Shown: in pieces, positions 22,500-37,071 of the stretch
How the letters are laid out: each line of letters starts with the position of its first letter
Position numbering within the stretch: the stretch's first letter is position 1
Source: Diacronema lutheri
Lineage: Eukaryota; Haptophyta; Pavlovophyceae; Pavlovales; Pavlovaceae
Assembly: GCA_019448385.1 (NCBI GenBank)
Contig: JAGTXO010000006.1
Span: forward strand, 992,001 to 1,056,000
Length of the DNA: 64,000 nt
Direction of reading: 5' to 3'
Program-made: the position numbers and the translations under genes
The notes under the pieces: model-generated
Database searches by the model: none
What the model was told of the DNA's origin: nothing
What the model saw: the letters and a program-made list of their open reading frames with translations, nothing else

Positions 22500-22856
22500 T
22501 CAGCGCGACAGGATCTGCGTGTACGTCTTGATCATGGCGCTCGACACCTGTCCAATCTTGCCAGCGTGCTTCTTGTTCTTGTGCTTCTTGTTGAACAGCA
22601 GATGCTGCTTGTTCGCGCGGCGGCGGAGGATCTTGCCGCCCGCAGTCATCTTGAAGCGCTTGGCGACGGACGAGCGCACCTTGGCGCCCTTCAGCTTCGT
22701 GCTAGGCTTCGGGCCACGCATCTGCACGGCGGACACGGCGCAGGACTCAGGCCGTCGCGCCATCGAGAGCGCGCCACCCCCGATGAACGCGAGCTCCGCC
22801 GTGGCGGACGCGCCGGCCACAGCCAGCGCGACCACCAAGAAGATGGCCTTCATCAT
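22500..22856 (-). CDS. Plastid ribosomal protein bL35 with bipartite targeting leader
   Basis: The 118-residue frame ends with a bL35 domain: KLKGAKVRSSVAKRFKMTAG, GKILRRRANKQHLLF, then a Lys/His-rich segment. It is part of the large subunit of bacterial-type ribosomes. The first 20 residues (MMKAIFLVVALAVAGASATA) form a signal peptide with an ASA-type cleavage site, followed by about 30 residues that would serve as transit peptide. That layout targets proteins to secondary plastids through the ER. The longer open frame upstream of 22856 lacks a signal-like start and was not used. A divergent ATG lies 48 bp away at 22905. Confidence 0.9.
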   Translation of the reverse strand: MMKAIFLVVALAVAGASATAELAFIGGGALSMARRPESCAVSAVQMRGPKPSTKLKGAKVRSSVAKRFKMTAGGKILRRRANKQHLLFNKKHKNKKHAGKIGQVSSAMIKTYTQILSR

Positions 22857-23087
22857 CAAGCCACGCGCACCGTCTTCTCGTCGATACGGTGCTCCCGGAC
22901 TCGCATGGCGGAATGGGACCTCACGGACAGCGTTCAGGTAGATGGACCCATCTCCGCGCCCGAGCACCGCCGATCGGGGCCAGCCACCGACTTCATCCTG
23001 CCCGAGCCCGGCATCACGCGCCTCTCCAATAGCTCGCGCGGCTGGGGGATAGCTCGAGCTGCACGCACCAACTGACGCACGCACCAC

Positions 23088-23348
23088 CTGACGCACGATC
23101 CGAACATCACGCTCGACGTGGTGCCCGCGTACCACTTTGGCTCAGAGAACCTTGTCGTGCTCGAGCTCATGATGCCGCGCGACATGCAGCCGAGCGAGAG
23201 CCATGACGTCGCTGTGCGCCTGCAGCACCGCGTCGAACCGCTCGACTTCTGCAGGGTGGATGAGCATGACCCGCGCGCGTCGCTACGCGACGAGACTGAG
23301 CTGCCTGGCGCGGTCGGGGCGGCGAGCAGCGCCGAGGCGGGCGGCTGA
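23088..23348 (+). pseudogene. Isolated C-terminal domain of a cation-efflux (CDF/MTP) transporter
   Basis: The frame 23088-23348 encodes THDPNITLDVVPAYHFGSEN followed by LVVLELMMPRDMQPSESHDV and LQHRVEPLDF. This matches the cytosolic dimerisation domain of CDF zinc/manganese transporters. The six membrane helices that should precede it are absent; bL35 occupies the opposite strand within 250 bp. The usual ERCFVHVDY-type segment appears shortened to CRVDEHD. No start codon opens the frame. A separate short frame from the ATG at 22905 (56 residues, MAEWDLTDSVQVDGPIS...) ends at 23075 and might be an upstream exon, though I see no credible donor. A gene remnant is most likely; a spliced small gene is the alternative. 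Confidence 0.6.
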
Positions 23349-26134: not shown

Positions 26135-27073
26135 CTATTTGGAAGGCAGCCCCGCCCACAGCCTGTAGGACGCCGTGAAGTGCTTGAGCGTAAACTCATA
26201 GATTGAGAAGAAAGCCATTGACTGCGGCACGGTCCGTAGCATCTGCGCGAAGATACCACGGTAGAAGGCGCGCAGCCCGCCCTGCCGCCAGAGCGTCGTC
26301 GTCGTGACGAACATCGACGAGTAGGGCGTGCCCTTGGCGCCCGGTTGAGGCCGCTGCTGCATAACAGCGCGCAGCACCTGCGTGGGGTAAGTCACGACGG
26401 TGGCAAACACCTTTGCGAGGAAGGAGGCGGCGAGGACGGAGGGGCAGATTGATCGGATCTGCTCGTACGACATGAGCAGGATCGCGCCGTGCGACACGAG
26501 CAGCATCGACGGCGCGAAGCCACGGTAGAGGCCGCCGACGCCCTCCTCGCGCACAATGCGCCGCGCCGCGTGCAGCCCGTCGCGGTACGCACTCTCGGCC
26601 TCCGGGTGGGCGGGGAGGCCGCTGACAGGGCGCACCTGCAGCTGCATCCGCACTTTGACCAGAAAGATCGGGTGCACCACGAAGTTGCTCAGGCAGCCCG
26701 CGCACAGCGAGCACGCGAGGTTGCGGGACGCGTGCGGCTTTGAGCCCTCGTGCTCGGAAGCGCCGTTGGACGCCCAGCGCTTGAGCTGCGCGTACAGCGA
26801 GAGCTGTAGGCCCCATGCGAGTGCCGTGCCCACGACATTGGGCATCAGCCCGTGGAAGAAACCGCGCCAGCTCTCCGTCGCGACGATCGTGCGCACGGCG
26901 TGCGTGAGCGAGCTGTAGACCGGCAGCCGGCCGACGCGCGCGTCCTGCACCTGCATACGCGTCTTGAGCAAGTCGAGCGGGTGCCAGGCGGCCGTTTGTA
27001 TGGCGCCTGACACGGCGCCCGCTGCGAACAGCACCGCCGACGGCACCGGCGCCTCGTCGCCTATCCTTTGCAT
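26135..27073 (-). CDS. Mitochondrial carrier (SLC25), folate/FAD-carrier-like
   Basis: A single exon of 312 residues with three tandem carrier repeats. Signature motifs are HPLDLLKTRMQ, HPIFLVKVRMQ and YPTQVLRAVMQQR. Six transmembrane helices are expected. The motif YRGFAPSMLLVSHGAILLMSYE and the third signature resemble the SLC25A32/Flx1 branch that moves folate or FAD into mitochondria, but residues alone do not settle the substrate. The ATG at 27073 is used because the frame upstream has no other ATG. It is divergent from a small ORF 143 bp away. Confidence 0.93.
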   Translation of the reverse strand: MQRIGDEAPVPSAVLFAAGAVSGAIQTAAWHPLDLLKTRMQVQDARVGRLPVYSSLTHAVRTIVATESWRGFFHGLMPNVVGTALAWGLQLSLYAQLKRWASNGASEHEGSKPHASRNLACSLCAGCLSNFVVHPIFLVKVRMQLQVRPVSGLPAHPEAESAYRDGLHAARRIVREEGVGGLYRGFAPSMLLVSHGAILLMSYEQIRSICPSVLAASFLAKVFATVVTYPTQVLRAVMQQRPQPGAKGTPYSSMFVTTTTLWRQGGLRAFYRGIFAQMLRTVPQSMAFFSIYEFTLKHFTASYRLWAGLPSK

Positions 27074-27216
27074 CCGGCGATCTCTCACGCGGCCATGCGC
27101 GTGCCGGCGTACTGATTACTAGGAAGGCGTCAAAAGAGTGAAAGGGTGTAAAAGGTGCGCCGAACAGCGAAACGTCAAACGACGGCCAGCGCGCCTTTTC
27201 GTCTTGCACGTACGAG

Positions 27217-27676: not shown

Positions 27677-30600
27677 TCACTCTGCGACAGGCCGCGCGGC
27701 AAAGTCGCCCGCCTCCACGGTCACATGCTCCGCGTGCGCCTTCCGACGCGCGGGAGCGGCGTGCGCGGCGTCCACGCTCACCGGCTGCGATCCGGCGGCC
27801 TCGGCGCGGCGACCCGGCTGAGACTCGTCGGGCGGCGTCTCAAAATTGAGGCGCCCGCTGCTCTCGCCGGCGATGCCCTCCGCCGCCATGCGGCGCACAG
27901 GCACGCCCTCGGCGACGCCCGCGTCCGCACCGCACACGCCGCCGCGCACCGCGCCGTTCGAGGCTGGCGCGGCGAAGCGCGCGGTGAGGTAGCTGTCAAT
28001 GTGCGGCGCGCAGTCCTCGCTCAGGCCGTGCGCCGCGCAGAAGCGGCGCACCAGCTCGTCGATCTCATCGCCCGTGCGGATCGCGAGCGTCGCCCCCCTC
28101 CCGTTTGGCAGGACGATTGGCACGTCCACTGTCACTTGGCTTGCGGACGGTGGTGGCCGCCGGCGCGGCGTCGTATTGGCCAGCGCGTACGCCTGCGCGC
28201 ATGGCGGCGTGCACGTGCCGCATGCCGCGGACGGCGGCGCAGCGTGCGGCCCGTGCGAGAGCCGCCTACTCGGTGTTCGCGAGGGCGACGATGGCCTCTG
28301 GGTGGCGGAGCGCGCGGACAGCGGGTGCGCGAGAGGCACGGCGCGGGCGGCGGGCAGCGAGGTCGCGCTCGGCGTGTGAGGAGGGCTGGCGGTTGCCTCG
28401 CGCGCGGCATTGGAGGCGCGCCCTTGTTCGTATTTAAAAGCATCGCCGCTGCCGCCACCGCGCGAGAGCGCTAGCAACAGCTGCATCACCGCCGCCGACC
28501 AAAGACCGCTGCCAATCGCCGCGAGGAGCTGCACCGCCCACACCGACGTCGTCGTCGACGCGGTCTCGGTCGCGCGCGGCTCGGCCGGCGCGAGCGACGT
28601 CGGCAGCGGCGAGCACGCGGCGATGAGCAGCGCGGGCGGCACGGCGGCGAGCCCGGCGAGGATGAGCGCGTGCGACGGAGCGTCGAGCACGCTCGCCGGC
28701 GCCGGCGCGCGGCCGCGGCTCAGCCAGCCACCGCTTCCGCCATTGCCGCCATGCGCTTCGTCAACGGCCGCGTCGCGAACGAAGAGGGTCTCGATCGAGC
28801 CGGCGGCGAGCGCGGCGAGGGCGGAGCCGGCGGCCGCCTGCAACGCGACCACGCGCAGCGGCTGCACGCCTCCCGCCACGGCGGCGCACGCCGCGCCCAT
28901 GAGCGCCCCAATGACGACGTCGCTGTACCCGCCCGCAGGCCGACTGTCCGTTGAGGTCGCAACAAGCTCTGCGCCTCCGAGCATGGCGAAGGAGACCGAG
29001 CTGCGCATGCCCGGCAGCGAGAGCTTGTCGTACAGGCTCTGCCGCCTCCGCTCGCGCAGCTCTGTGAAGATGCCCCACACCGAACCGCCGACCACCGCCT
29101 GGCATCGCGGAGCCACGGCGCGGCGCGGCGCGTGCGCGGCGGCGGCAGAGGTGAGGCACGAGGGGGAATGCTTGCAGGTTTGGTTGTAGTGTGTTGAGAC
29201 AAACAAAAAGGGGGCAAGGGTGTGGTTGTGTGGCCCGGCGTGTGGGCGATGGGCAGGACGCATGCAGCGCGCACCGACACGACCGTGCCAACCGCCGCGC
29301 CCACGGCGCTCCCGCCGTAACTCGCCGCCGAGGCGGCGTACAGCCCGATCGCGCCGAGGACAAGGAGCGCTGCGCGGTGCGGGCGGTCGGCGCGGCGCGC
29401 GCGCGCGGTGCGAATCGACGGCGCAGCAGCGGGCGTGCGGCGCGCGTGTGAGAAGACCGTTGCCGAGAGCAAGAAGGCCCGTGCACGCGCGCCCACGGCG
29501 CGCACGGGGAGCAGCTCGCATGCGCGCACGGCGTGCGCGCGTGGCGCGTTCGCTCAGGTGCGCGCGCACACCCCCGACAAGTGTGGACGGCGCGTTACAC
29601 AAGCTGCTGCGGCCGTCAATGTCAAGGTCGAGGTCGAGCGCGTCGTCGTCGGCGGCGGCGGCGCCGCAGCCGTTGCCGAGCGGCGCTCGGCGCATCGCGC
29701 GCTCGCGCGCGACGACGCACAGAGCGCTCGCGGCCGTTACGCCCATGGTGACCGCGCCGGACACGTCGATGGCGCCGCGCGCGCGCAGCGCGCCGGCCGC
29801 GCCCCACACCCAGTGCATGGGGGGGCAGGCGCCTATCAGCAGCCAGCACGCGAGCGCGAGCGCGAGCGCCGGCGTCGACGGCCATCGCGTTCGCACGACG
29901 CCGCAGGAGCCAAGGCCGACGGTCAGGACGAGCGCCCGCACCAAGGTCAGGGCGAAGAACTGCGAGGCGGTCGTTGCGTCCGCGACGAGCTGTGCCGCGC
30001 GCGGCAGGCGGAGCGGCGGGCTCGCAACGAAGCCGTTGAGCAACTCCACCGTGCCGTACGCGAGCGAGAAGCCGACGCCCGTCCACGCGACGATCGTGAC
30101 CGCCACGAGCGTGCACGTGCGCACGGCTGCTGCGCGACGGACGTGCCCTTCGCTCGCCGCGGCGCTCGCCATCACGCCGCCGCTCGCCGCGAACGTGCCG
30201 CGCGCGGCGCGGTCGTCGCCACGTGTCTGCTGCGACGCGAGCGCGAGCGCGGGCACGAGCAGCGCGCTGAGTGCGACCCAGCACCAGCCCTGCATGAACG
30301 CGCCGGCGGGCGCGCGCTCCGGCTCGACGGCCGCTCGCGCGCCGGCCGCCTCGCCGCCACTTCCGGCCGCGCCGCGCGGAGCCGCCGCGCTCGAGCGCGT
30401 CGGTGCGAGCGCGCCGGTTTCAAGCCCGCGCGTCGAGTAGATGGCGTACGCGCCCGCGCCGACACGCAGCACGTATTCCGCCGCCGAGCAGCTGAGGCAC
30501 CGTCCAGTCCGGGAGGAGAAGCTGGCGTACGGTGCATCGCGCTCTCGGAGCGCGCGCTCGGCGCACGCGCGCTCGCTCGGCGCGCGCGCGCCCATCGACG

Positions 30601-33600
30601 TGCCGCACGCGAAGCCATCGAGCAGCGCGGCGAGCGGCGGCTCGGACGCTGCGAGCGCTGGAGCGAGGGCCGACGCGCGGCTCGCCGCGGCCGGCAGCAC
30701 AGCGAGCGGCAGCGGGCTCGGCGCCGCAGGCGCGGTCACGTGCGGCGGCGGCGGGCGCGGCAGCGGCGGCGACGGCGACGGCGGCGAGGCCAAAGCTGGT
30801 GCCGGCGCCGGCGAAGGCGGCGCGCGCGGTGTGGGCGATGGCGGCGGCGGGCTCGCGCGCGCGCGCGGCACGCCGCCATAGGCCTCCATCGTGTAGATGT
30901 TGTAAAGGGCGTTGCGGGTGCGTTTGCCCAGCTGCGCTTCGTCACACGCAAAGCACAGCCGCGTTTGCGCGCCCCACGTGAAGGAGGGCGCGGGGCGGTG
31001 CTCGCGCACAAGCTCGGCGCACGCGGCGGCGGACCTGACCGCCCGCATCACGATGGAGCCGCAGCCCTGGCGCGCGTACAGCACGCCGGCGCCGGCGGCG
31101 TCGGCGCCGACGAGCGCGGGCGGCGGGCACGGCGCGGGCTGTGGCGGCGGAGACGGCGACGGCGGCAGCAGCAGCGGCGGCGGCGCGCGCGCGCGTGCGG
31201 GCGGTCGAACAGCCGCCGCCGCGGCGATCTCGGCCGCGCCGCCGGCCGGTCGCACGCGCGCGCCGGTCGCATACACGTCGAGCGCGCCAAAGGGCACGCG
31301 CGCGGCGAACTGCTGCGCGCTGCAGCCATGGCAGAGTCCGTTGGCGCCAGCCGGGGGCAGCGCGTAGTAGGGCAAACCGCGTGCGGCGGCCGCGCGCGCG
31401 CACGCGGGTGCGGACGGCGGCACACCGACATCGTCGCCATCGGCGTCGAGCACGTCGCCGCAGCCAAAGCCGCGCGCCACCGGCGCGGCCGCGCCCGACG
31501 CGCCCGCGCCCGACGCGCCCTCGCCCTCGCCCTCGCCGGCATATGGCGCGGCGGCGCGCGACGGCGCTTTCGGCGCGCTGCCGCCGCCCGGCGCCGCGCG
31601 GCCGCGCACAACGTTGGGCGCAGAGGGCGGCGGTCCAACGCGCTCGTAAATGTCATAATTGGGCAGCGCGATCCGCAGCGCGAGCCCGCGCGCCGTGCAC
31701 GCCGAGCAGATCGAGAGGCGGTGCGAGTAGGACATGTGCGTGGCGCCGGCGGTGCGTGCCGCGCACTCGTCGATTGACGAAACACTGCGCAGCGGCGGCA
31801 GGCACGGCGCGCGGGTGCAGTGAGCGGGCGCGGCACGCACTGCGCTCGGCGCGCGCGCAAGCGGCGTATGCGCGCGGCAGGTAGAGGCGCGCGTGCGCGC
31901 GTGCGCGAAGCAAGCGACCGGGTCGCGGGCGTGCGGGCGCGTGGCGCGGGCCGCGCCGCGAGACGCCGACGGCCTCGCGCACGAGCAGCGGCGCTCGGGC
32001 CGGCAGCACGCGCACGTACCGGTCGAACTGCGACGAGCTTTCTGTGCACGTCATCCCGGCAAACGCGAGCTCGATCGTCTCCGCGGCGCGCGCGCCCTCC
32101 GGCGCAGGCCGGCCCTCGACGAGCGTGTCCGCCGCGACGAACGCGCGCGTCGAGTAGACGTCGTGCATGTTGTCAGGCGCGTGCTCGACGGCCTGTGCAA
32201 AGGTGCACGCATAGCAATAGGTCGTATCCGACGACCACGCAAACGCATACGGCGCAAACGCCTCCTTGCCGCTCGCGCTCGCCGCCGCGACCTCGTGCGC
32301 GCACTCGCGCGCGCTCTCGACGCCCGTCGCGGTCGGCCAGCGGCGCAAGCCGCAGAACGCGCCGCTGTGCAGCAGCGCGGGCTCGGGCGGTGCAGGCGGC
32401 GGTGCAGGCGGCGACGCAGGTGGCGGCGCGGGCGGCGGCGCGGGCGGCGGCGTGCGCGGCGGCGCGCGCGCTGTCGCCGCGCTCTCGCCCTCGCCAGCCG
32501 CAGCGCGGCCGCGCGACACGCCGTAGATGTCGAACGACGCCGACGGCCGACGCGCGTCGAGCTCGGCGGCGCTGCAGCTAAAGCAGAGACCGTCCGCGGC
32601 GCGGAAGGCGACGGCGCGCACGTCCTCGGGCATGCCCGCCGCGCATTCCGCCGCACTCGCCGCCGCCGCGCGCTCGAACACGCCGCATCCCTGGCCGGCG
32701 TGCAGCACAGCCAACGGCGCCGTATCGCCCGCGCCAGCGGCGCGCCGCTCCGGCAGCGCCGGACTTTGCGGCGGCGAGCGCGCGAGCGTGCCTGCCGCGT
32801 CGCCGTGGCTCACGGCGCCGCCGTGCGGCGACGGCGCCACGCTCGGCGCCACGCTCGGCGCCACGCTCGGCGCCGGCGCAGCGCGCGGCGCAGCGCGCGG
32901 CGCAGGTACCGGCGCCGCGGGCGGGCGCGTGGGCCCGCTGGCCGGCGGCGGGCGCGGCGCGTACGTCTCGACTATGGGAAGCAGCTGCGCGACGCGGTAG
33001 ATGGCGTAGCTCGGTTCGGGCCTGAGCGGACGCGCCGCCTCCGCCGCGGTGCACCGGAAGCAAAAGTTGGACAGGTCGGACCACGCAATGAATCCGAATG
33101 ACGGCCCGGACAGTGCGGCGACAACCGACGTGCAGCGCGCCGCCGACGCAATGCCGCTCGCGACGAATGCGCCGCACTTGCTCGCCTCGGCGTACGGCGC
33201 GAAGGGCGGCGCCGATGCGCCGTCCGCCGCGGCCGCGTCGTCCGGTGCGAACGCCACGAAGCCTTGGGGCAGCTCGTGCGGGGCGTGCGCGCCGGCCGGC
33301 GTGGCCGCCGGCGCGGCCGCGGCTGCGGCCGCGGCTGCGGCCGGAGCTGGGACCGCGCGCGAAGGGCTCGCGCCAGAGGCGGTGCTCGGCAGCGCGCGGG
33401 CAGAATCGACGGGCTGCGCTCTTGGCTGCGCCATGGCGGGAGTGGCCGCTGCAGCAGCCGGGGCCGCGATGGGGTCGGGCGTGGCCGCGTGTGCCTGTGC
33501 GTCGGGCTTCGCGGCGGCGTCGCCGGCCGCGCCGCGCGGCGCCGCATCGGGTACGAGCAGCACGAAGATGTTGGTACCCTCGTCATCCGTCCGGCCGATC

Positions 33601-34346
33601 ACCTCGTCCGCCGTGCACGCAAAGCACAGCTGCGCGCCATCATTGTAGGCAAAATGCGTCGGTGGCGGCTGCGCGCTCGGCGCGCGCGCGAGCACCGCCG
33701 CGCGGCACGCGTCCGCGGATCGCGCGCCACCGCCGATGAAGCGGCCGCAGCCAGCGTTGACGAAGTGACGCACGGGCTCGGTAGGCGTCGCGCCCACGGC
33801 CAGCTCGACCGGCGCGGCTGGCGGCTGAACCCGCTGGCCAGGCTCGATGGCGGTTGGCGCGGCGCGTGCCGCGGGCGCCTGCACGTACGCTGACGAGCCG
33901 AGCGCCCGCTGCCCGACCGGCGGCCCAGACGCGAGAGCTAACGGCTGCGCGGGACCGTCGTCCGCGTGCGGCGCGGCCGCCGGCGCGGCCGCCGGCGCGG
34001 CTCGGGTGCGAAAGATTGCGTAGGACGCGTCGGGTAGGCGCTTGTCGATATCGAGATCGCTGCACCCGAGGCACAACCTGCTCTCCGCAGACCAGCTGAA
34101 GGCCGGCGGCTCAGAGCGCGCACGCCGTGCCGCGTCTGCGCATTCCTCTGGCGACGCAATCGCCACGGCCAAGATGGCGCCGCAGCCGAAGCCGTCGAAA
34201 AGCACTGCGGTCGCTCCCGCCGCCAGCATCAGTGCGCCGGTAGCCGGCACGCGGCCAGCAGCATCCCCGCTGGCCAAAGCCGAGACGATGGTGATGCCGT
34301 GCGCGCCGTTCAGAAGGGGGAGCCACCAAAGGGCGCGCATTGACAT
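27677..34346 (-). CDS. Nine-module Cys-rich ectodomain fused to an ammonium-transporter-like core (2018 aa)
   Basis: Four exons, 34346-32020, 31784-29572, 29369-29275 and 29098-27677, join in phases 2, 1 and 0 to 2018 residues. A hydrophobic N-terminus suggests a signal peptide. Nine modules of about 60 residues follow, pattern CG-x(8-15)-C-x(15-25)-[LFY]C-x2-C-x(15-20)-YxIY, near residues 55, 201, 392, 555, 666, 768, 885, 1010 and 1150, separated by Pro/Ala linkers; they resemble PAN/Apple-type folds only loosely. Residues about 1245-1740 align with the AMT/Rh family: GVGFSLAYG, CPPMHWVWGAAGALRARGAI, TLVGALLVLGAIGLYAAS, SAVVGGSVWGIFTELRER, VVIGALMGAACAAVAG and WAVQLLAAIGSGLWSAAVM. The first pore histidine is kept (MHW); the second, normally VHG, reads LQAAAG. 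A C-terminal module (GRGATLAIRTGDEIDELVRR then FCAAHGL) looks like a beta-grasp fold. A receptor or transceptor role is inference. An extra in-frame intron in exon 4 is possible. Confidence 0.82.
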
Positions 34347-34539: not shown

Positions 34540-34996
34540 CGCCAGTGCCGGCGGCGGCAGCGCGCGCGGGCCGAAGCGCGGCCGGCGTTGACGCACGGCC
34601 GAGCCGCGCAGCGGTCGACGCTTTGCGGGCTCTGCCCAGGTCGCGCGCGGCTGGCGACGCGTGCCGCGCGCGGCACGACCGTGCACGCCGCCACCCGTGG
34701 CCGAGCGCGCCGCACCAGCCGGCCCGCTCCAACCGCCGTGCGGATCACGGACGCTCGCTACGGCTCGTCGGCGCGCGTCACCTGCGCCGGCGGCCACGGC
34801 GCCGTCTGCTCCGGCCTCGTCGCGAGCAGCCCGACCGCTGCTCGCCGCCCGCACGCCGCCGCAGCAACGCTGCGCGTCGTGCTCCCCCGCTCGCCAAACG
34901 CGAAGAGCTCCCTCACAAGGACGTCCTTCCGAACGGCCCGCGCTGCACTCGGGGCGCGATCGTGCCCCTGATCGGATTTGGCTTGACCATCTATAC
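34540..34996 (+). repeat. 457-bp repeat, solo copy A
   Basis: Read on this strand, the segment from CGCCAGTGCC to CCATCTATAC matches, base for base as far as I can compare by eye, the reverse complement of 61977-62433. Here it stands without the Fanzor gene. TATAC directly precedes the GCCAGTG start (34536-34540) and also forms the last five bases (34992-34996), so it may be a target-site duplication or a microhomology. The repeat supplies the last codon and stop of the TLC gene. Its recent origin follows from the lack of visible differences. Confidence 0.92.
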
Positions 34997-35903
34997 CTCC
35001 TTCTCGCGTCCGACCTTGTCTCCCTTCGCCATCTTCATCGCCGCGTTGATGATCTTGTAGCCCCAGTACTGCTGCAGCACGCAGAGGAAGACGTTCATTG
35101 CGCCGAACGAGATGAAGAGGCCGAAATGTGCCATCAGCTTTGGGTCGGCCGCCGCGTAGAGCCTGCGGCCGGCGCACAGTTTGCGCCCCACAGCGCAGGA
35201 AAGCGGCTGAGCTCGGTGCTTGGCATTTGGCGCGGCGCGTGGCGACGTGCGTCGCGGTGGGGCGCAGCGCGGCGTGGCGCGCGCACGCCAAAAAGTCCTT
35301 CCACCAAAAGTAGGAGACGTACGGCATTATAAGGCAGCGCACGGGCAGGAACGTCGCGGCGAACGCGATGCGCACAGCCTCGTTGACGGCGTCGACGCGC
35401 TTGGCGAGCTTTGGGAACGCGCGGAAGAGGTCAACAAAGCAGAGTGGCACCGAGGAGATCTCGAGGATGCCAAAGTAAAAAGGCTTCCAGTAGTCCAGGA
35501 ACCGCGTGCTCGTCAGCCAATAGGCGAGCAGCAGCGCGACGGTATGGTGCGCGATCGCGTCGGGCTTGCCCATCCCGGGCACGAGCACCGTCGTCGTGAG
35601 GTCGAAGATCTGTAGGCCGAGCATCGTCGGCGCGAAGCACGCGGCGCCCGGCATCTTGAAGAAGAGCCGGCTGCCTGGGTCGTCGGCTACCTCGTTGCTC
35701 GACGAATTCCAGTGCACGAGCCCCTGATAGGAAAGGAAGGCGAATGGCGCGACCATCACAACGTGGTGCGCGGCGAGCGCCGCGCGGCCCTTGAACGGGC
35801 CGACGGCAGAGAAGAGGACTGTGAGCACAGCGAACGAGGCAAACAGGCTGGACGCCCAGAACGTCGTGTACGCGTCGCTAAAAGGCGACAAGTCGAGCGC
35901 CAT
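34991..35903 (-). CDS. TLC-domain membrane protein (TRAM/LAG1/CLN8 family)
   Basis: Two exons, 35903-35287 and 35162-34991, joined in phase 2 by a 124-bp intron, give 262 residues. The TLC signature is spread over about residues 40-240: AALAAHHVVMVAPFAFLSYQ, MLGLQIFDLTTTV, AIAHHTVALLLAYWLTSTRF, FGILEISSVPLCFVDLFRAF and LFISFGAMNVFLCVLQQYWG. Six or seven helices are expected. Family members act in ER lipid metabolism or sensing; the layout is closer to TMEM56/CLN8-like proteins than to ceramide synthase, which has a longer Lag motif. The last six bases, encoding Val-stop, lie inside the 457-bp repeat, so the present C-terminus may have been set by that insertion. Confidence 0.87.
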
Positions 35904-36179
35904 CCCGTCCGCAAATTATTACTAGTACGAACGATGGCGTTGGGATTTTTTCTCCCCGGTTCCTGGCTTTCCGCCGTCGACGTCATTGACGCGTTGGCAG
36001 GCTCGATCGCCACGTGGCTCACGCCTCGGGCGCATGGCCCCGCCGCATGCGTGGTGTTTACACGGCCGCACATTGGCCCATGTGGTTCACCCGCCCCCGT
36101 CCCACGCCTTGACGCGCAGGCCGCAGCCCAGCCCTACACGGGCGGGATCTTGCGGACGGCGGTGCGCGCGCCGCGCGGC

Positions 36180-37013
36180 TCATGCGCGGTAGCTGCCCGG
36201 GCCAGGGATCAGCGACATGGAGCGTTCCACTGCGCGCGCGGGGAAGGGGCGGGTGGGGGGCAGGTTCGGATTGAGCGCGCAGCACGCGCAGTCGTCGGCG
36301 GCGAGGGGCGCGCCGGACGGAGGCGGCGTCGCGCGCGCGCCGCGGCGCGTACGACGCTCCGTCTCCGCGAACCGGCCGCCGACGCCGAACGCGTACGCGG
36401 GGACCGACGGCTTGTGCGACTGCAGCTGGCGGCCGAATGCGGACGGCGACTCGTACGCGCCGGGCGCGGGCGTCACGGAGATATCGGAGGTGATGCCAAG
36501 GGCAATGCGCTCCTCTTTGACGCGGAGCTGCTCGAGCGCCTGCGCATTCTGCGGGCCGAACGTGTAGCCTGGCGCCGTGCGGGTGCCAGCGATGACCTGC
36601 CGCCCAAAGCCCGAGCTGAGACCGACGCGCGCAAACGCGTGAGGGAAGCCGCCGACGGTGCGACCGGCGTTGGTCTCAAATCCGACGCCGCGTGCAAGCG
36701 GCCATGTCCCTGCGTGGCGGACAAACGAGTTGCGCTCATCGACCGCGAGGCCCGTCGGGTCGCTCACCGCCGATGCGGGCGGCGCGCGAGGCGGCATCGG
36801 CGGCGCCGGCTCGGGCGTGGGGCGCGGCCGGATCGCAAAGATGCGGCGCGCCTCGGCGAGCTCGTGCACGGCCTCGGTGTAAGTCTGAAAGCGCGCGGGC
36901 GACGGCTGCACCGCCGCGATCGCCTTGCGCCGCTCCACGCGCGGGCTCGGCGACGCGTCGGCCTCCGAATCCGCGTTGGACATACTTGCCAATCGGTCCA
37001 GCCCAGCGCACAT
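36180..37013 (-). CDS. STPGR (SHIPPO) repeat protein, probable flagellar component
   Basis: A 277-codon single exon. PG-rich repeat units typical of sperm-tail/SHIPPO proteins are visible: TPAPGAYESPSAFGRQLQSH, a TAPGYTFGPQ unit and the final IPGPGSYRA. Such proteins line axonemal microtubules in flagella (ODF3/STPG family). The rest is Pro/Ala-rich and probably disordered. The methionine at residue 11 (36983) is an equally good start. It is divergent from PUS7 with 58 bp between start codons. The 276 bp between its stop and the TLC gene start show no other gene. Confidence 0.72.
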   Translation of the reverse strand: MCAGLDRLASMSNADSEADASPSPRVERRKAIAAVQPSPARFQTYTEAVHELAEARRIFAIRPRPTPEPAPPMPPRAPPASAVSDPTGLAVDERNSFVRHAGTWPLARGVGFETNAGRTVGGFPHAFARVGLSSGFGRQVIAGTRTAPGYTFGPQNAQALEQLRVKEERIALGITSDISVTPAPGAYESPSAFGRQLQSHKPSVPAYAFGVGGRFAETERRTRRGARATPPPSGAPLAADDCACCALNPNLPPTRPFPARAVERSMSLIPGPGSYRA

Positions 37014-37071
37014 GTTAAGTTAACCCAAAATAGGCACGCCGAGATAGGCAGCAGAAGTCACGTGAACGGCG

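Follow-up and report, generated by a model that had tools for sequence, protein, structure and literature searches.

A haptophyte gene predicted to join nine PAN/Apple-fold modules to a membrane core derived from ammonium transporters

In the haptophyte alga Diacronema lutheri (Pavlovales), a gene on the minus strand of a 64,000-nucleotide stretch of contig JAGTXO010000006.1 (positions 992,001 to 1,056,000; hereafter the window) encodes what is probably a large surface protein of unusual composition (Table 1). Our analysis of this gene, which is predicted from genomic DNA alone, finds nine homologous cysteine modules, one of which was modeled and has a predicted PAN-type fold, descent of the membrane region (roughly transmembrane helices TM2–TM8) from ammonium transporters (AMTs), and fusion of the module array to that membrane core within a single exon. 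With about as much confidence as doubt, we read the product as a multi-Apple surface adhesin or receptor built on an AMT-derived and probably non-transporting scaffold. It has the appearance of a transporter turned surface receptor or anchor because two pore histidines seem to have been lost. Specifically, we infer that the protein is secreted to the surface, where nine PAN/Apple-fold modules on proline-, alanine- and serine-rich spacers would project outside the cell and bind glycans or proteins, with a membrane domain of ammonium-transporter ancestry holding them in place. Because AMT proteins trimerize and have their N-terminus outside, such a string of modules could be presented in clustered form, with 27 modules if the protein is trimeric. 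Strict trimerization is described for AMT proteins (PMC5764959). The core would then serve as a scaffold, or as a signal relay to a C-terminal tail that may carry a ubiquitin- or Ras-binding-like module into the cytosol.

Gene model and the junction of modules and core

An earlier note on this DNA, made from the letters alone, had proposed a 2018-residue protein spliced from four exons. The four exons do splice to exactly that length with one stop codon, and the ends of introns 1 and 3 are plausible; the second intron, by contrast, is one of 13 frame-keeping GT-AG choices, which give proteins of 2002–2070 residues. Residue numbers used here are those of the 2018-residue model. Splicing out intron 1 joins the two parts of module 6 in frame. 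The intron 2 chosen in the earlier note ranks second of the 13 by AMT profile (33.7 bits; top 34.6) and seventh by hhalign (50.0; top 54.2, with the acceptor at 29514), and five choices that pair a donor at 29764-29713 with acceptor 29514 score 51.1–54.2 by hhalign. Picking the intron by its fit to AMTs was rejected, since the two rankings disagree. When acceptor 29514 is used, the added stretch (window 29370-29514, minus strand) ends in RPHRAALLVLG, a sequence similar to the PHN motif found before AMT helix 6.

That the module array is fused to the core does not hinge on these intron calls because the junction sits within one open exon. Exon 1 by itself encodes modules 1–5, and exon 2 encodes, in one stop-free frame, modules 7–9 and then core helices 1–5 (transmembrane helices TM1–TM5). 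A match to TIGR00836 (residues 1332–1565) spans both later exon junctions as one stretch. Window G+C is 71.6%, and the published D. lutheri assembly has a G+C of 73.25% (PMC8379373). Reliance on genomic DNA alone, together with the ambiguous ends of intron 2, could favor a gene model that mis-joins two or more transcripts, or a gene in decay. We consider this highly improbable: half of the core shares one open exon with modules 7–9, third-position G+C lies between 0.845 and 0.906 in the four exons, and the cysteine pattern is intact in all nine modules at only 21–37% identity to module 1. The union of modules, AMT-derived region and C-terminal module in one protein, as the earlier note described it, is supported.

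Nine cysteine modules and their predicted fold

All nine cysteine-rich modules reported in the earlier note are real and mutually homologous. Profiles built in each case from the other eight modules score the one left out at 30.8–73.4 bits, against at most 14.3 bits for shuffled versions (200 each). The modules are 69–81 residues long, and four cysteines and one serine are invariant in every one of them. The pattern first given for them, CG...C...CxxC...YxIY, was drawn too tightly, as CG is present in eight of the nine modules and strict YxIY in four. Between the modules lie spacers that are 52–86% Pro, Ala, Ser, Thr or Gly (nine stretches chosen by eye). Elsewhere in the window there is no convincing further module, the best match outside the gene having E = 0.023 over 23 residues. 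A profile of three close modules gave 90 pattern matches among viral contigs and no relative, and frames of at least 60 residues from 166 fetched AMT loci contain no module match at E ≤ 1.

The modules, anonymous until now, can be assigned a fold by structure prediction. For module 8, in an alignment of eight of the nine modules (module 6, split by an intron, was left out), the best AlphaFold2 model had a predicted local distance difference test score (pLDDT) of 94.1 and a predicted template modeling (TM) score of 0.83. When this model was compared with the PDB by Foldseek, 163 matches were found at E ≤ 10, the best 50 of which were listed. The best 10 of the 163 comprise five entries for the N-domain of HGF, four fungal copper oxidases and one entry for apple domain 5 of MIC4. 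The last of these is the best whole-domain match among the matches listed (TM 0.69/0.72), and within the best 50 the HGF and MIC4 entries have TM scores by query length of 0.56–0.69 and E-values of 0.04–0.37. Other matches listed are to AMA1, SML-2, kallikrein, factor XI, plasminogen and a Wsc1 domain. We take the copper oxidase entries to carry an N-terminal PAN domain, and AMA1, SML-2, kallikrein, factor XI and plasminogen presumably are all PAN-type. At the sequence level, a nine-module profile searched against PDB sequences places MIC4 (0.015) and HGF (0.028), both PAN-type, as its top two molecules, but with eight slightly longer modules MIC4 comes only third (0.47), after a viral polyprotein and HDAC6. 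Support for PAN from sequence is thus weak and varies with the profile used, which leaves the predicted fold to carry the case. Disulfides in PAN/Apple domains typically link helix and sheet. PAN/Apple domains have a core of four to six conserved cysteines (PMC9249922), and four are conserved in each of the nine modules. Collectively, the predicted structure and the cysteine pattern lead us to describe the modules as PAN/Apple-fold domains of a divergent group beyond the curated models; we class them by fold and not under a named Pfam family because no Pfam model matches them. Suggested roles of PAN domains are binding to carbohydrates or proteins and assistance in receptor dimerization (PMC9249922). 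The proposal in the earlier note of a surface receptor accordingly fares well where it concerns the binding of ligands or cells, which fits the PAN/Apple fold, but less well for nitrogen sensing, given the apparent loss of the twin histidines and an arginine aligned at the gate and outer site.

Comparison of the module 8 model with predicted viral proteins (BFVD) gave 144 matches at E ≤ 10 and none at 0.001, and the named top rows among the best 50 listed are mostly PAN/Apple proteins of giant viruses. Two of the rows are Q4A2U1, a putative membrane protein from Emiliania huxleyi virus 86 (E = 0.13, 24% identity, TM 0.58 by query), and A0A0N9R3K7, which is PAN/Apple-like and comes from Chrysochromulina ericina virus (E = 0.044, 11% identity, TM 0.71). 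Haptophyte viruses may, on these modeled structures, bear similar modules, possibly as part of a common surface toolkit. A literature search for apple or PAN domains in Emiliania huxleyi or its virus found no paper.

The membrane core, its pore and the protein ends

The AMT-like membrane region recognized in the earlier note is borne out by several profile comparisons. PF00909 matches the spliced core with 36.7 bits (E = 2.6e-9; gathering cutoff 23.2), its best stretch covering profile positions 23–164 of 399, while no Pfam match at E ≤ 10 came from the core reversed or from three block-shuffled versions of it. The TIGR00836 (amt) match scores 39 bits (E = 4.4e-10), below that model's own cutoff of 343.3. 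For hhalign, an AMT profile was built from 80 bacterial genome loci and five plasmid loci (85 proteins, 82 of them used after filtering). The core scores 50.0 against it over residues 1322–1618, whereas none of 100 block shuffles exceeds 23.3, and the score ranges from 43.6 to 54.2 over all 13 choices of intron 2. A read-through stretch gave AMT chains in the PDB at 0.015–0.081. An AMT fragment searched against viral contigs gave 20 pattern matches and no relative. Of the AMT columns that are at least 90% conserved, 37 of 107 are kept in the core. AMT proteins have eleven helices. Hydropathy marks eleven hydrophobic stretches in the core, but one of them is an extra stretch between the presumed TM10 and TM11, and the expected TM8 falls under the threshold. 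Judged from these alignments, AMT descent is firm for about TM2–TM5 and fair for the continuation to TM8–9; beyond that point the core is assigned by hydropathy only.

The pore residues of this core have diverged from those of transporters. The roles of the outer site (S1), the Phe gate and the twin-His pair are taken from PMC10433425, and AmtB numbers were assigned to alignment columns by motif and by counting. As controls we used 143 AMT readings of at least 330 residues from 166 loci (80 bacterial, 58 from viral contigs and five from plasmids; 23 shorter readings were dropped); in the search of viral contigs with a five-sequence AMT alignment, 80 of 226 loci were kept. Because the loci were found by similarity to transporters, this set covers transporters and not the whole superfamily. 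His318 and Asp160 are present in all 143 controls, and His168 and Trp148 in 142 of them. In the D. lutheri protein, His168 aligns to Gly1457, which sits eight residues past the conserved Asp, the same spacing as in AmtB; the residue at this distance is Gly or Val, and never His, in all 13 choices of intron 2, making the loss of the first histidine secure as an alignment result. The loss of the second is less certain, Gln1632 being its likely counterpart in a part where the alignment is weak. Residues 1434–1660 of the 2018-residue model contain no histidine at all, and acceptor 29514 or 29552 in intron 2 would add histidines before helix 6. The Phe gate is likewise lost by alignment (Phe107 to Arg1392, Phe215 to Leu1523). 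Because both histidines and the Phe gate appear to be lost, the core probably does not move ammonium in the usual way.

Two alternatives concern the membrane core. The first is an ammonium sensor or transceptor, in which the outer site would bind ammonium and the core would signal to the C-terminal module, with the Apple modules providing surface placement or a second input. Consistent with this, alignment shows that the structural Asp is retained, as are the Trp and Ser residues of the outer site (Trp148 to Trp1436, Ser219 to Ser1527, Asp160 to Asp1449), and Ks-Amt5, an AMT–kinase fusion, senses ammonium with a closed pore (PMC5764959). However, Ks-Amt5 retains the twin-His pair and the Phe gate (PMC10433425), both apparently lost here, the third S1 residue, Phe107, aligns to an arginine, and two single twin-His variants of yeast Mep2 transport yet lose signaling (PMC9040831). 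Ammonium sensing is possible but less likely than an adhesin or receptor on a non-transporting scaffold, and we judge it unlikely. The second alternative is a modified channel, in which a core without the twin-His pair would conduct ammonium, another cation or a small molecule and the Apple array would merely tether. It arises because AmtB without the pair becomes channel-like, hydrophilic substitutions of the twin histidines having this effect (PMC9040831; PMC10433425); with an arginine aligned at the gate position inside TM3 and the second half of the core strongly diverged, we regard it as quite improbable.

The C-terminal beta-grasp-like module of the earlier note, which may be Ras-binding-like, is weakly supported. 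Residues 1866–1926 match the Raf-like Ras-binding domain (RBD; PF02196) with 18.5 bits (E = 0.002), under the cutoff of 25.7, and the FERM F1 lobe with E = 0.034, also under the curated cutoff. A single-sequence model has a pLDDT of 70.4, with two strands and two helices; Foldseek comparison of this model gave 869 matches at E ≤ 10 and none at 0.001, the top rows being ISG15 and SUMO, with ELMO1 and the A-Raf RBD also found. A more specific form of our reading, which we offer tentatively and hold to be unlikely, is a new receptor class in which the pore was given up and a (trimeric) multi-pass core links nine extracellular Apple domains with a Ras-binding-like module inside the cell, akin to animal adhesion receptors. 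The weakness of the C-terminal match suits instead a conventional surface adhesin or glycoprotein: the AMT-derived part would only anchor it, nothing would be signaled and the C-terminal module would be incidental; nine repeats on low-complexity linkers are likewise an adhesin-like layout. Such a protein would hardly need a multi-pass core of ~490 residues, which far exceeds the requirements of an anchor, and we find this alternative improbable.

Several results weigh against an Apple-bearing adhesin or receptor on an AMT-derived, non-transporting scaffold. With regard to the modules, two of the five AlphaFold2 models of module 8 lie near pLDDT 70 (94.1, 91.8, 89.2, 70.9 and 70.3), none of the 163 PDB matches reaches E ≤ 0.001 (the best is 0.015), and Pfam models match none of the nine modules at E ≤ 10. 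With regard to the core, the part from helix 6 onward scores by itself only 19.7 by hhalign against 28.4 for the best of 100 shuffles and has no Pfam AMT match, phmmer retrieves no PDB chain at E ≤ 1 with the spliced core as query, and tblastn of the core against plasmids finds no match at E ≤ 0.01. Moreover, AmtB without the twin-His pair still passes ammonium, as a channel (PMC10433425), and the loss of the pair alone is therefore no proof of a dead pore. At the N-terminus, the signal peptide that the earlier note proposed, and that we judged by eye, is weakly supported: its best 19-residue hydropathy is a modest 1.23, and residues 37–66, before and in module 1, are more hydrophobic, with a peak of 1.93. 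At the other end, the extra hydrophobic stretch could be a further helix that places the C-terminal module outside, so that the side on which the C-terminus lies is uncertain.

Table 1. Positions of the gene, its parts and neighboring features in the window
Feature	Position	Strand	Remarks
Gene	34346-27677	minus	predicted from genomic DNA alone; probable large surface protein
Exons 1–4	34346-32020, 31784-29572, 29369-29275, 29098-27677	minus	splice to 2018 residues
Intron 1	31785..32019	minus	235 bases, GTACGT...GCAG; plausible GT-AG ends; interrupts module 6
Intron 2	29370..29571	minus	202 bases in the model of the earlier note; ends ambiguous, acceptor may be 29514
Intron 3	29099..29274	minus	176 bases, GTGCGC...CCAG; plausible GT-AG ends; T-rich stretch
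Start codon and possible signal peptide	34296..34346	minus	residues 1–17; first Met of open frame, by eye
PAN/Apple-fold module 1 (predicted)	33996..34208	minus	residues 47–117; alignment and leave-one-out profile
Module 2	33546..33773	minus	residues 192–267; alignment and leave-one-out profile
Module 3	32982..33203	minus	residues 382–455; alignment and leave-one-out profile
Module 4	32508..32714	minus	residues 545–613; alignment and leave-one-out profile
Module 5	32139..32381	minus	residues 656–736; alignment and leave-one-out profile
Module 6	31631..32075	minus	residues 758–827; split by intron 1
Module 7	31256..31486	minus	residues 876–952; alignment and leave-one-out profile
Module 8	30872..31087	minus	residues 1009–1080; modeled with two extra residues, pLDDT 94.1
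Module 9	30419..30631	minus	residues 1161–1231; alignment and leave-one-out profile
AMT/Mep/Rh-derived membrane core	28457..30304	minus	residues 1270–1759, exons 2–4; PF00909, TIGR00836, hhalign
Gly1457	29741..29743	minus	aligned to AmtB His168
Gln1632	28838..28840	minus	likely AmtB His318 position; alignment weak in that part
Extra hydrophobic stretch	28589..28681	minus	residues 1685–1715, between presumed TM10 and TM11; hydropathy only
C-terminal ubiquitin-like/RBD-like module	27956..28138	minus	residues 1866–1926; weak
Mitochondrial carrier	26138-27115		three repeats; Pfam
Ribosomal L35, bacterial/organelle type	22503-23141	minus	end of 213-residue frame; Pfam
TLC-domain match	34761-35915	minus	weak, E = 1.4e-4, below cutoff; adjoins the gene

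Neighboring frames and known systems

Eight of ten coding-like frames in the window matched Pfam models, two of the eight below cutoff (TLC and ATG16). Apart from the frames in Table 1, the matches include TruD, Ssl1, dienelactone hydrolase and the N-terminus of a P4-ATPase. The product of the L35 frame is probably an organelle protein that is encoded in the nucleus and carries a long presequence. An open reading frame at 36183-37019 (minus strand) has PGPGSY/PAPGAY repeats that by eye resemble flagellar SHIPPO/outer-dense-fiber proteins. Two of the plasmid AMT loci also deserve mention. In one from Vibrio sp. THAF64 (L005), the frame from ~1511 appears by eye to carry an AMT domain in frame with a histidine-kinase-like ATP-binding motif, which would make it a bacterial AMT sensor fusion like Ks-Amt5; the 3.6 kb fetched carries no annotated features. 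In the other, from Alicyclobacillus dauci (L001, ~1601-2400), an AMT gene is apparently frame-broken, and its second half is annotated only as a hypothetical protein.

Module and core are of known kinds; the novelty lies in their combination and in the stripping of the pore. A literature search found no ammonium transporter combined with an apple or PAN domain, in a scope that left most subscription papers outside and that leaves absence unproven, and a broader search turned up nothing alike among the titles and abstract openings listed. If our reading is true, the shift from transporter to receptor would show how a pore can be abandoned with its scaffold retained, and should this architecture prove to be conserved among haptophytes, it becomes a candidate for the recognition of cells, prey, mates, scales or viruses by ecologically important algae.

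The HGF N-domain, the apple domains of MIC4 and plasma kallikrein share with the present modules the fold, four conserved cysteines and a tandem arrangement. In contrast to the named PAN/Apple families, the modules described here are recognized by no Pfam model, and to our knowledge HGF, MIC4 and plasma kallikrein are none of them joined to an AMT core. Within the AMT superfamily, the erythroid RhD/RhCE proteins, which are not known to have an Apple ectodomain, are a precedent for a role in a membrane complex rather than in ammonium transport. The available portion of PMC3742762 neither supports nor denies that role. Fungal Mep2 transceptors likewise belong to the AMT family and have a proposed receptor role. 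We know of no ectodomain array in Mep2. It transports and retains the first histidine of the pair (PMC9040831), whereas the present protein appears to be without it. Whether an AMT scaffold can signal without transport is described as unsolved for Mep2 (PMC9040831), and this protein makes the question testable. Ks-Amt5 and other AMT-sensor fusions (AMT plus histidine kinase) likewise use an AMT-derived core as one part of a multidomain protein, followed by an output module. However, Ks-Amt5 has the twin-His pair, the Phe gate and a kinase (PMC5764959, PMC10433425), while the D. lutheri protein, in which the twin-His pair appears to be lost and no kinase was seen, carries an ectodomain of nine predicted Apple modules.

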